NCBI GenBank assembly: GCA_028698865.1
Contig: JAQVVS010000001.1
Span: 1 to 33,659, forward strand
DNA from: Candidatus Altimarinota bacterium
GTDB taxonomy: Bacteria > Patescibacteriota > Gracilibacteria > UBA1369 > LOWO2-01-FULL-3
Direction of reading: 5' to 3'
DNA: 33,659 bases
Below the pieces are notes generated by a model. That model saw only the letters and a list, made by a program, of their open reading frames with translations. It made no database searches and had not been told where the DNA came from. A program made the translations under genes and the position numbers. This document shows positions 9,427 to 33,659 of this stretch, in pieces. How positions within the stretch are numbered: the stretch's first letter is position 1; each line of letters opens with the position of its first letter.

Positions 9427-9468
9427 GTTTTTAAAATTAAAAATATTTAAATCCTGTTTTTAATAAAG

Positions 9469-9501
9469 AGGGCGGCGCCCTTTTGCAAAGGGCGCCGCCC
9501 T
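9469..9501 (-). terminator. GC-rich 15-bp hairpin after the LTD/dockerin gene
   Basis: AGGGCGGCGCCCTTT (9469-9483) pairs perfectly with AAAGGGCGCCGCCCT (9487-9501) around loop TGC. On the minus strand it is followed by CTTTATTA. It is very GC-rich against the AT-rich background. It could end or attenuate transcription into the cohesin gene. Confidence 0.6.
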
Positions 9502-9508
9502 ACTCCTC

Positions 9509-11002
9509 CTACAACTTCATCCCAAAATTCACACCTAAATCTATCAAGTCGCTTCCATCTATAATCCCATCAAAATTCGTATCGCTCAAAGGATTATACT
9601 CCTCATCTCCAAAGCCACTTCCATAACTTCTCGCCAAGGATTCCAAATCTCTCCCATCAACTCGGCCACTTCTATCGCTATCCCCGACAAGCCCTCTGCT
9701 TTCAGAGGCACTTATCGCGGAAGCCGGCCCTAAAACCCCATTTTTCACAGGAATGATCTGATATTCGTAAACTATATTCGGAATAATATTTCCTCCGTTT
9801 ATAACTCCGTCTTTATCAACAAACGATAGATTTACAGTCTCTCCCAATACCATAAAATTACCGTTGCTCGCCTTTCTCTTGACCACATATTTTTCCGCGC
9901 CACTTTCCGGAGCGGTCCAATTTAATGCGAGGCTGTAAACACTTTCTCCGGTATTTGATTGCAAATTTCGCACACCGGAAAGTTCGACAGCATCCCCCAC
10001 AGTTATGGATAAAGGTGAAAAACTCGCCTCAATATCCCCATCGGTGCCAGCCAAAAAGCTTGCTCCCCCAACGGAAATATCACCTTGTCCATTTGATCCT
10101 ATCACTTCAAAATCCACACTAAAAAGTTCGGCGGTCCCATCAACTCCGGAAGGAGGATTTTGCAAACGAGCGTTCGCGACAATCAATTTTCCTTGAGTGT
10201 CGTCTTCCAATCCATAATTAAAACTTGTTTGAGAACCGTCTCCTTTCAAAAAATTACTTTCATCGGCCGAAACAAATCTCAACAAAGAAGGATTGTAATT
10301 TATTTCCACGCCATAAGCATATAAATCCACAACTTTCTCGACTTTAAATCCGACGGAAAAATTTTCTCCTTGAGAAAAATCCGTTTTTGCAGAGGTAAAC
10401 AGCGCTTTGGTTCCACCGCTAAAGTTGCTGTTTGCGCCTCTCGGAGTCCCCAAAATCGGAGATCCGGTTCTTCCGACAGATCCGTTTCCGGATGTAGCGG
10501 AAGACCAATTACTCACGGAATCGACCGTAATGGATGGCTCAATTCTTTCCATTGTAGCCTTTGAAGTTCCATCTCCGGCATACCAAGCTCCACCCAATCC
10601 GTTCACCGTATCGATTACACTTCCATCAGCATCTTTCAATACCAAACTGTCTCCAGCATTTGCCAAAGAAATTCCTATAACCGCGTCCGCAGACACATTC
10701 CCGATAGTATCCTCGGTGTCTTCTATCAAAAAATATCCTCTCGGAGCGATAGTTCCGCTCGCGATGGTATAAAAAGAAACTCCATCATCCTCGATTACCC
10801 AGCCGGTCAAATCAATACTTTGATTGGTATTGTTGTAAAGCTCTATCCATTCGTCATTTGAATTATCACTGGTTCCGGCCCAAGCAATTTCATTTATAAC
10901 CACGGATCCGAAAGATGCCGCAGAAGCGACTCGAAAAGTCACAAGTTGCAAGGCCATAACCACGAGAGTCATCAAAACGAAGTATTTTTTCAGTACATTC
11001 AT
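9509..11002 (-). CDS. secreted LTD-cohesin-Fn3-dockerin protein
   Basis: This 497-aa protein has a signal peptide (about 1-29, ending VASAAS). A lamin-tail domain follows (about 30-190: VVINEIAWAGTSDNSNDEWI, NQSIDLTGWVIED, GYFLIEDTED, ISLANAGDSLVLKDADG). A cohesin-type domain (about 200-335) has NFSVGFKVEKVVDLYAYGVE and INYNPSLLRFVSADES. An Fn3-like domain (about 340-430) has LNWTAPESGAEKYVVKRK. A C-terminal dockerin has two calcium-loop repeats (GDSDRSGRVDGRDL and SDTNFDGIIDGSDL). Cohesin and dockerin in one polypeptide allow chains or binding to the neighbouring anchored cohesin. It is extracellular and has no enzyme domain. Upstream it carries the shared extended -10 promoter module. Confidence 0.82.
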   Translation of the reverse strand: MNVLKKYFVLMTLVVMALQLVTFRVASAASFGSVVINEIAWAGTSDNSNDEWIELYNNTNQSIDLTGWVIEDDGVSFYTIASGTIAPRGYFLIEDTEDTIGNVSADAVIGISLANAGDSLVLKDADGSVIDTVNGLGGAWYAGDGTSKATMERIEPSITVDSVSNWSSATSGNGSVGRTGSPILGTPRGANSNFSGGTKALFTSAKTDFSQGENFSVGFKVEKVVDLYAYGVEINYNPSLLRFVSADESNFLKGDGSQTSFNYGLEDDTQGKLIVANARLQNPPSGVDGTAELFSVDFEVIGSNGQGDISVGGASFLAGTDGDIEASFSPLSITVGDAVELSGVRNLQSNTGESVYSLALNWTAPESGAEKYVVKRKASNGNFMVLGETVNLSFVDKDGVINGGNIIPNIVYEYQIIPVKNGVLGPASAISASESRGLVGDSDRSGRVDGRDLESLARSYGSGFGDEEYNPLSDTNFDGIIDGSDLIDLGVNFGMKL

Positions 11003-11054: not shown

Positions 11055-11100
11055 CAAAATATCAACCATTCATTAAAAAATTGTTAAAAAAATCTTAAAT
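11055..11100 (-). promoter_or_regulatory. shared extended -10 promoter module, copy A
   Basis: On the minus strand a conserved A/T block (TTTAAGATTTTTTTAAC, then AATTTTTTAATGAATGG) ends in TTGATATTTT, an extended -10 (TG-N-TATTTT; -10 at 11060-11055). Copies B (26165), C (32212) and D (32998) share the layout. Here it precedes the LTD/dockerin gene by about 50 nt. Confidence 0.6.
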
Positions 11101-11162
11101 TTTCCTAAATTTTTCCTAAACTTTTTCTGAAATAAAAAACATCCACTTTCCCGCACCCTCCC

Positions 11163-32192: not shown

Positions 32193-32211
32193 GTGCCCGG
32201 ATTTTTTCAGA

Positions 32212-32259
32212 AAAATTTTAAGATTATTTCATAATTTTTTAATGTTTTGTTGATATAAC
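32212..32259 (+). promoter_or_regulatory. shared extended -10 promoter module, copy C
   Basis: AAAAATTTTAAGATTATTTC, then ATAATTTTTTAATGTTTTG and TTGATATAAC (TG-A-TATAAC, -10 at 32254-32259). The predicted start near 32266 coincides with the outer stem of the tRNA-like RNA. Confidence 0.65.
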
Positions 32260-32265
32260 AAATCT

Positions 32266-32402
32266 ACCACTGGGGGGACGAATGGGACTGAAGCGGTCTT
32301 GCTGATAGGTTCGTCACCCAATCAGCTGGGGTTCGACTCCCCACAGTTCCACCACAGTGGCACAAAAAAACCACCTTCCTTAATTGGATAGTGGTTTTTT
32401 AA
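32266..32402 (+). ncRNA. tRNA-like small RNA with alanine-type acceptor, not a normal tRNA or tmRNA
   Basis: A T arm TGGGG-TTCGACT-CCCCA (32327-32343) is followed by CAGTTCC and ACCA (32344-32354). GGGACTG (32284-32290) pairs with CAGTTCC as a 7-bp acceptor with G3:U70 and A73, the alanyl-tRNA synthetase identity signals also used by tmRNA. Between them are only 36 nt, with a 6-bp stem GCTGAT/ATCAGC (32301-32306, 32321-32326) and a 14-nt loop instead of D and anticodon arms, and no tag frame. An outer stem CCACTG/CAGTGG (32267-32272, 32355-32360) closes the precursor. An alternative 9-bp hairpin, GGG-GACGAA with TTCGTC-A-CCC, would exclude the tRNA-like fold. It has promoter copy C and its own terminator. 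Confidence 0.62.
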
Positions 32403-32432
32403 TTTGAAGTCGCTCACTGATAGGTTCGTCAC
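32302..32432 (+). repeat. 16-bp direct repeat spanning the tRNA-like RNA and its 3' flank
   Basis: CTGATAGGTTCGTCAC occurs at 32302-32317 inside the RNA and again at 32417-32432 just after the terminator, 115 bp apart. Confidence 0.8.
32365..32402 (+). terminator. terminator of the tRNA-like RNA
   Basis: AAAAAACCAC (32365-32374) pairs with GTGGTTTTTT (32391-32400). The long A/T arms make it work in both directions. Confidence 0.8.
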
Positions 32433-32562
32433 AACAATTATATTACAAAGCTCTCTCCTTCGCAACTTTTTATAATAATTTGCTCAATCACCGGCGATCA
32501 ATGTAAGATTATCACAGTCATAAAGTCATCCAAGATAAAGAAATATCTTTAAACACACGAGT

Positions 32563-32971: not shown

Positions 32972-32997
32972 CAAGCCAAAATTCTTCATTCTCAAAT

Positions 32998-33051
32998 TTC
33001 AGAAAAATTTTAAGATTATTTAATAATTTTTTAATGTTTGCTTGATAACAT
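32998..33051 (+). promoter_or_regulatory. shared extended -10 promoter module, copy D
   Basis: AGAAAAATTTTAAGATTATT, TAATAATTTTTTAATGTTTGC and TTGATAACAT (TG-A-TAACAT, -10 at 33046-33051). It is nearly identical to copy C over about 45 bp. It lies upstream of a second, consensus promoter. Confidence 0.6.
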
Positions 33052-33079
33052 AAATTCACAAGTTGATTATCATATCATC

Positions 33080-33108
33080 TTGACGGTGAGTATTTGCTCA
33101 CCTATAAT
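33080..33108 (+). promoter_or_regulatory. BRO-N gene promoter with palindromic operator in the spacer
   Basis: TTGACG (33080-33085), 17 bp, and TATAAT (33103-33108). The spacer is almost entirely the inverted repeat GGTGAG-TATTTG-CTCACC (33085-33102), so a bound repressor would sit between the two promoter boxes. Confidence 0.75.
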
Positions 33109-33136
33109 CAAAATGTTTACAATTAACTATTACAAT

Positions 33137-33659
33137 ATGACTGATCTCGAATTAACAATTTTTGAAGACTACAATATTCGTCGCCAATATGACGGCAAAA
33201 AAGAAAAATGGTATTTTTCGGTTGTTGATATTATTCAAGTTTTGATTCAGCAAAAGGATTATCAAGTTGCTAGAAACTACTGGAAAGTTTTAAAAAATCG
33301 CTTAAATAAGGAAGGAAGTCAAATGGTTACAAAATGTAACCGTTTGAAATTGGTTGCAGAAGACGGAAAAATGAGAATCACTGATGTAGCCGACACAGAA
33401 ACACTCCTCCGCCTTATTCAATCAGTTCCAAGTCCTAAGGCGGAACCAATAAAGCTTTGGCTCGCTAAAGTAGGATATGAGAGAATGCAGGAAGTTGTAG
33501 ATCCGGAAAAATCACTCAATAGAGCTAGGGAGAATTGGAAAAAACACGGAAGAGATGAAAAATGGATTCAACAAAGAATGTTTGGCCAAGAAACCCGTAA
33601 TAAACTCACCGATTATTGGAGTAATCACGACATAAAGGAAGGAAAAGAATTTGCAATCC
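33137..33659 (+). CDS. BRO-N domain (phage antirepressor-like) protein, 3' end beyond window
   Basis: The open frame continues past the right edge (at least 174 codons). It matches the BRO N-terminal family: EKWYFSVVDIIQVLIQQKDY, ARNYWKVLKNRLNKEGSQ, KLVAEDGKMRITDVADTETL and LIQSVPSPKAEPIKLWLAKV. Chromosomal members with this core are common in bacteria and are thought to bind DNA or act in stress regulation. An in-frame ATG at 33113 lies only 4 nt after the -10, so I prefer 33137; a leaderless 33113 start is possible. Its promoter carries a palindrome in the spacer, suggesting repression by itself or another regulator. Confidence 0.83.
   Translation, partial: MTDLELTIFEDYNIRRQYDGKKEKWYFSVVDIIQVLIQQKDYQVARNYWKVLKNRLNKEGSQMVTKCNRLKLVAEDGKMRITDVADTETLLRLIQSVPSPKAEPIKLWLAKVGYERMQEVVDPEKSLNRARENWKKHGRDEKWIQQRMFGQETRNKLTDYWSNHDIKEGKEFAI

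Follow-up and report, generated by a model that had tools for sequence, protein, structure and literature searches.

We identified a short tRNA-like RNA with an alanine-type acceptor end and, beside it, the gene of a predicted small antisense RNA that probably switches it off. The tRNA-like RNA occupies positions 32284–32354 of the forward strand of the window – the whole 33,659-nt stretch of DNA that we analyzed, which is part of a 997-kb draft genome. With slightly more confidence than doubt, we read the pair as a two-RNA switch, in which an alanine-accepting tRNA mimic that is induced with competence would be neutralized by its dedicated antisense RNA, perhaps as an RNA-only growth brake resembling a toxin-antitoxin system. 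The case is built from sequences of draft, mostly metagenome-assembled genomes: it draws on the anatomy of both RNAs, covariation, cognate pairing, orthogonality, three gene layouts and shared promoter boxes.

Neither Rfam 15 nor the literature searched (open-licence papers, no preprints) contained a tRNA-like RNA with a dedicated antisense partner. Judged against these sources, the mini-tRNA/antisense pairs of ultra-small bacteria represent a large family that has not been described before. It is common in ~1 Mb genomes that keep little non-coding DNA, and its two RNAs show rapid co-evolution. A first-pass annotation of the same DNA missed three features that point to an effector under antisense control: the antisense partner, the multi-copy nature of the family and the shared promoter boxes.

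A mini-tRNA with an alanine-type acceptor

The mature mini-tRNA is supported by its sequence, a covariance model score of 88.6 bits, alignment and covariation. Read 5′ to 3′ on the forward strand, it consists of GGGACTG (32284–32290), the 3-bp D hairpin AAG-CGGT-CTT (32291–32300), an anticodon-arm-like hairpin GCTGATAGGTTCGTCACCCAATCAGC (32301–32326), the T arm TGGGG-TTCGACT-CCCCA (32327–32343), CAGTTCC (32344–32350), A73 (32351) and an encoded CCA (32352–32354), with GGGACTG and CAGTTCC forming a 7-bp acceptor. The acceptor, T arm, G3:U70 pair, A73, CCA and mature length of 71 nt are as the first-pass annotation described them. That annotation had also described an RNA with no anticodon arm, a statement that we correct: an arm with a conserved, bulged stem of ~9 bp and a 7-nt loop (UUCGUCA, 32310–32316) stands in the anticodon position, is backed by covariation and duplex energies, and is the predicted antisense target. 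The hairpin of ~9 bp that had been interpreted as a competing fold is this same conserved arm, located after the D hairpin with its GG.

The previously proposed outer stem also held up in the predicted fold and in homologue comparison. CCACTG (32267–32272, forward strand) is predicted to pair with CAGTGG (32355–32360), and an outer stem of at least 6 bp was found in 80% of homologues versus 23% of mismatched controls. The stretch around the mini-tRNA had a folding z of −5.5, beyond chance. In the predicted precursor fold the outer stem is paired with the acceptor 3′ strand and CCA, whereas the isolated 71-mer is predicted to form the acceptor, hairpin and T arm (−26.4 kcal/mol), making two folds possible. 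An A-rich/T-rich inverted repeat lies just beyond (32364–32401), with a hairpin predicted on each strand and possible termination on both.

ARAGORN and Rfam at its gathering cut-off reported just a tRNA-Lys and a tRNA-Glu within the window, leaving the RNA at 32284–32354 unreported; nor did the mini-tRNA reach the gathering cut-off for the canonical tRNA cloverleaf (RF00005). It carries the full set of alanine-acceptor features (G3:U70, A73 and CCA). Such an acceptor end comprises all elements known to suffice for AlaRS, an enzyme that does not read the anticodon. The mini-tRNA is apparently built for carrying alanine. Because the D-loop GG and the standard T loop (TTCRANT) imply a tRNA elbow, EF-Tu could plausibly bind it. 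Features that speak against normal decoding are the long stem and the variable loop with its C37.

To define the family, we combined several searches. A DNA search of 99 relatives returned partial matches outside tRNAs and tmRNA. A covariance model (R1) built from four sequences and run on 89 genomes of the order identified 80 relatives of the window's mini-tRNA in Ca. Peregrinibacteria/Peribacteria, often several per genome (e.g., G064, G058, G041, G084 and G062), with more in other Patescibacteria; matches of 74–77 nt, which is tRNA length, were left out of the family count.

We aligned 81 members to the model, replacing an earlier MAFFT alignment that had misplaced the 5′ acceptor strand. 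Paired cells amounted to 95.6%, versus 65.6% in shuffles and 41–59% in slid versions – percentages that lean upward because the alignment is fitted to the model and all seeds have G3:U70. Cells with double changes numbered 606 versus 169 in shuffles, 20 of the 24 pairs showed them, and they cannot come from model fitting alone. The acceptor pairing is kept in homologues, and the RNA is not part of a longer tmRNA. G3:U70 was present in 81 of 81 members and pairs 1–72 and 2–71 were almost invariant too, while the four acceptor pairs that follow vary widely in pair type. With an invariant G3:U70 next to freely covarying neighbors, a stand-alone alanine acceptor is the best fit among the identities that the first-pass annotation had proposed.

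The remaining elements are similarly conserved. In the D hairpin 98.8% of cells were paired, all three pairs showed double changes and the loop GG was present throughout. The four inner pairs of the T arm were 100% paired. The arm in the anticodon position has a loop consensus of about nU(U/C)GnCA; within the 7-nt loops (n = 65), U33 occurred in 56, G35 in 51, C37 in 46 and A38 in 61. A73-CCA was encoded in 65 of 81 members, with a full CCA absent from the other 16.

The antisense partner and the spread of the family

Beyond the inverted repeat, the hairpin 16-mer CTGATAGGTTCGTCAC recurs at 32417–32432 (0.07 occurrences expected). On the minus strand this 16-mer follows a σ70-type promoter (TTGCGA-17 nt-TATAAT, 32437–32465; 10 of 12 matches, the best of the region), which predicts an RNA starting (GU)GACGAACCUAUCAG that is complementary to the loop and 5′ strand of the hairpin. 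The 16-nt repeat and duplex energies support an antisense RNA gene at 32363–32432 on the minus strand, with a predicted 5′ end at 32432–32430. The first 16 nt of this RNA, GTGACGAACCTATCAG, are the exact complement of 32302–32317. The predicted duplex with the window's hairpin has an energy of −32.9 kcal/mol, versus a control mean of −18.7 and a control minimum of −26.0. Paired with the whole mini-tRNA, the antisense RNA is predicted to reach −41.5 kcal/mol and to engage the loop, the hairpin 5′ strand and part of the D/acceptor region.

This arrangement recurs across the family. A hairpin copy of at least 10 nt lay within 300 nt at 71.6% of loci, versus 1.9% with foreign hairpins; copies of the T arm near the loci showed no such excess over controls. 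At 51 of 81 loci the duplex energy beat all 30 foreign hairpins (2.6 loci expected), a comparison that is conservative because the loops share a motif. In genomes with at least three copies, cognate pairs averaged −31.3 kcal/mol and non-cognate pairs −14.8 kcal/mol; by these predicted energies, the antisense RNAs of paralogues within one genome are orthogonal. The 56 loci with a clear copy were arranged convergently (36), in tandem (12) or divergently (8), and 51 of them had an antisense −10 element with at least five of six matches. In the tandem layout of the order, the antisense −35 (TTGCCT) falls inside the acceptor 3′ strand.

Hairpin and antisense copy appear to evolve quickly and together. 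Hairpin sequence was not kept between the orthologous loci L114/L118 and L121/L131, and matched changes in hairpin and antisense copy were seen in L116/L117. At a minority of loci (L069, L079, L086, L097, L099, L106 and L146) the nearby copy matches the acceptor strands or the CCA end instead; ACGGCTCCACCA and TCCAGTCCACCA are examples antisense to the acceptor 3′ end and CCA. Some relatives had no detectable antisense copy. What these loci have in common would be a partner that can unfold the mini-tRNA or cap it. As in pairs of the hok/sok kind, the cognate complementarity exceeds chance. In known antisense systems a 5′ tail pairs with the loop of a target hairpin, and recognition loops contain YUNR U-turns (PMC4485353). 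The family's 7-nt loops, with U33 in 56 of 65 and G35 in 51 of 65, match such a U-turn; the window's loop, UUCGUCA, contains UUCG.

Other explanations of the repeat were rejected. The 16-nt repeat at first resembled an att site, but its copies are short, stand behind a promoter and recur with other sequences in three layouts. Cis-antisense of the overlapping type does not describe a gene that lies beside the mini-tRNA gene, sometimes upstream of it or on the same strand. A mobile element was discarded as no neighboring gene recurs; we found no recurring neighbor or partner protein gene beside the copies. Orthologous loci keep their position (L114/L118 and L121/L131, near recJ), making them less mobile than many toxin-antitoxin loci. 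We attributed weak Rfam matches (E up to 10) to chance or to terminators.

The family extends well beyond the order. In a phylum sample of 380 genomes, 44 had a match at E up to 1e-8, though the true fraction is lower because tRNA-length matches of 74–77 nt are among them. An exact pattern run over 84,980 genomes identified relatives in WWE3, Falkow-, Uhr- and Doudnabacteria as well, where loci are mostly tandem – CCA, then TTGACA, then the antisense RNA. The planctomycete isolate Aeoliella straminimaris carries a convergent copy (L173, 59.1 bits). Antisense pairing was less clear for L175 and L179, from other clades. Viral contigs yielded one match (L206, IMG/VR contig, 9445–9517; 61.4 bits) with no clear antisense partner; its best duplex fell on a GC-rich hairpin resembling a terminator, which we did not accept as an antisense RNA.

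Several individual loci deserve mention. L173 (contig positions 1126–1197) appears to overlap the end of an hsdM-like frame and lies beside a rhuM-like gene. L165 and L179, on two contigs of one WWE3 genome (MEVN01000042 and MEVN01000037), form local clusters of two mini-tRNAs 0.6–1.8 kb apart on each contig. L014 (G021:C3:51182-51231) is a tRNA-like RNA of greater length that has a D arm and shares the loop motif; a stretch upstream of it on the same strand contains AACCAATGTG and CTCATGGGTGACG, both complementary to its anticodon region and arranged in permuted order. L204 (G260:C13:3686-3757) has a matching antisense stretch and an acceptor (GCCGAC..GTCGGC) that lacks both G3:U70 and CCA, possibly a variant with another identity. 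In L017 (G033:C56) and L100 (G084:C65) the contig ends just past the mini-tRNA, the former stopping inside the repeated hairpin copy and the latter with a mini-tRNA identical to L101, which suggests that assemblies break at these repeats.

Promoter boxes shared with competence genes

Four direct repeats (TTTCA, TTTTA, TTTCA and TTTAA; 32205–32243, forward strand) spaced by 11 bp precede the mini-tRNA. An exact four-box match and periodicity make them a probable activator box. A −10 element, TATAAC (32254–32259), follows on the same strand at the position that it also holds in homologues such as L086, L146 and L147, placing the likely start near 32266. Across the family, regions upstream of mini-tRNAs showed an 11-bp periodicity (lag 11, z = 12.0; lag 22, z = 6.5) that was much weaker in antisense promoters (0.310 vs 0.392 at lag 11). 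The box can be summarized as TTTnA at 11-bp spacing, ending near the −10.

In the window's genome, boxes precede comM, ssb, dprA, a KilA-N gene, ORF6N, lamin-tail genes, and RelBE-like and MazF-type loci. A Bro-N domain gene just downstream of the mini-tRNA (32997–33658) has the same four-repeat box (score 24.9). Directly upstream of dprA and comEC in relatives the box is found again, and in two genomes (G014 and G023) an extended pattern gave 11 sites versus 1 for a reversed control, located before comFC, RelBE-like, VapBC-like and other genes. The RelBE-like and VapBC-like names come from reading the sequences, the RelBE-like pair having no Pfam match. A weight matrix scored the window's box at 22.5 bits, dprA of the same genome at 18.9 and comEC of three relatives at 13.5–21.7, against a 99th percentile of 14.4 bits for 300-nt background. 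A looser four-box pattern (up to one mismatch) showed no excess in the window's own genome (24 vs 20 for the reversed-pattern control), so single sites are to be read with care; the specificity of the box rests on the exact and extended patterns and the weight matrix.

Further 11-bp boxes lie within the window at 11062–11132 (minus strand) and 26163 (plus strand), the former preceding a secreted protein whose sequence resembles a lamin-tail-domain protein. At L229 (G000:C66:8495-8532, minus strand) a short non-coding stretch with a terminator-like hairpin lies between a box and an RHH/MazF-type toxin-antitoxin pair downstream; the stretch is possibly another small RNA of the regulon.

Occurrence of the box at dprA, comEC, comFC, comM and ssb suggests a competence regulon. 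We rejected a classical Pho regulon, which is unlikely because PstS (PF12849), of the phosphate ABC transporter, was absent from all six genomes searched. Saccharibacteria have been shown to be naturally competent (PMC10633639), and the mini-tRNA offers a concrete candidate link from competence to translation control in Patescibacteria.

Possible functions and comparison with known systems

In the two-RNA switch that we favor, the first RNA is a short tRNA mimic with AlaRS acceptor features, a tRNA elbow and a U-turn-like hairpin with a 7-nt loop that replaces the normal anticodon arm. It would be charged with alanine and induced along with competence by an OmpR-family regulator. The second RNA would be made from an ordinary, constitutive-looking σ70-type promoter; its 5′ tail would pair with the loop first, then invade the hairpin 5′ strand and the D/acceptor region, unfolding and inactivating the mini-tRNA, or at a minority of loci match its acceptor and CCA end instead. 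Free mini-tRNA may then act on translation as the growth brake of an RNA-only, toxin-antitoxin-like module, slowing translation when competence is switched on or the antisense RNA decays. Competence-type boxes beside translation-targeting toxin-antitoxin genes, together with a constitutive-looking antisense RNA, fit such a translation-slowing effector; the suggested tie to toxin-antitoxin systems comes solely from the promoter box also found at protein toxin-antitoxin genes. We are more tentative, leaning somewhat toward doubt, about the wider proposal of a new RNA-only toxin-antitoxin or growth-control system that would be wired to competence and widespread in Patescibacteria, with an alanyl-tRNA mimic acting on the translation machinery and its own fast-evolving antisense RNA neutralizing it.

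Alternatively, the antisense RNA could regulate other mRNAs, and the mini-tRNA could be a stable decoy that takes it away, much as tRNA-derived sponges do. An unstructured, partner-specific 5′ tail is consistent with this idea, which we nevertheless consider unlikely: an invariant G3:U70, T loop and CCA are not required of a decoy, the match of some antisense RNAs is to the CCA/acceptor end, and hairpins change completely between orthologous positions, so that all targets would need rewiring. A regulated alanine donor is decidedly unlikely as well. Here the charged mini-tRNA would, during competence, supply alanine to an enzyme other than the ribosome (for wall cross-bridges or for modifying peptides or lipids) and the antisense RNA would only tune its level, as the universal alanine identity, the CCA and an arm that does not decode might suggest; however, no transferase gene recurs beside the copies, and a common donor does not need multiple copies in one genome, each with an antisense RNA orthogonal to the others. 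Use of the 7-nt loop as an anticodon, inserting alanine at non-alanine codons as antisense-controlled mistranslation, strikes us as quite improbable. The loop length, U33 (56 of 65), the elbow and the indifference of AlaRS to the anticodon are compatible with decoding, but 46 of 65 loops have C at position 37, an unusual residue there for a tRNA that decodes, copies differ at positions 34–36 and the stem is about 4 bp too long.

That the mini-tRNA is a degenerate tmRNA (an early suggestion, with a split tmRNA also rejected) or a tRNA pseudogene is virtually untenable: its tmRNA model (RF00023) score of 38.5 bits lies under the Rfam cut-off of 47 and is no better than two 77-nt tRNA-length matches, while the same genome encodes a full tmRNA (G000:C128:1670-2082, 121.8 bits), covariation in the 81 homologues is strong with G3:U70 kept in every one, and the mini-tRNA has its own promoter type and antisense partner. 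This tmRNA turned up in the search for a normal ssrA gene that had been recommended as a check. The 71-nt RNA has no mRNA-like tag-peptide domain and ARAGORN found no tmRNA in the window, in line with the first-pass statement that a tag is lacking.

The two-RNA switch shares elements with several known systems. Like the mini-tRNA, the tRNA-like domain of tmRNA (ssrA, RF00023) has a G3:U70 alanine acceptor, a reduced D arm with GG, a T arm and CCA; the mini-tRNA differs in having no tag frame, a closed short hairpin in place of P2 and the mRNA domain, a dedicated antisense RNA and a full tmRNA co-existing with it. The acceptor end and T arm also resemble those of tRNA-Ala, from which the mini-tRNA is set apart by its 71-nt length, 3-bp D stem, missing 8–9 linker, long bulged hairpin with a variable loop, and many copies with unrelated hairpins in which the alanine anticodon is not conserved.

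As in hok/sok and RNA-IN/RNA-OUT, a single-stranded 5′ tail would meet a YUNR-like U-turn loop and one stem strand would then be invaded; unlike in those pairs, the target is tRNA-like rather than an mRNA and the antisense gene lies beside the target rather than on the opposite strand. CiaR-dependent csRNAs of streptococci are linked to competence and stand behind TTTAAG-N5-TTTAAG boxes 10 nt from the −10 (PMC3091779). They resemble the mini-tRNA as small, competence-linked RNAs behind similar boxes, though as to control by CiaR the likeness is of the box only; csRNAs lack both a tRNA-like form and an antisense partner, and the RNAs that they pair with are mRNAs. Type VIII toxin-antitoxin systems combine an RNA toxin with an RNA antitoxin (PMC12737573). 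Similar to CreTA and SdsR/RyeA, the mini-tRNA pair comprises two non-coding RNAs, one apparently neutralizing the other; it differs in having no CRISPR link and in its effector, a tRNA mimic and putative toxin.
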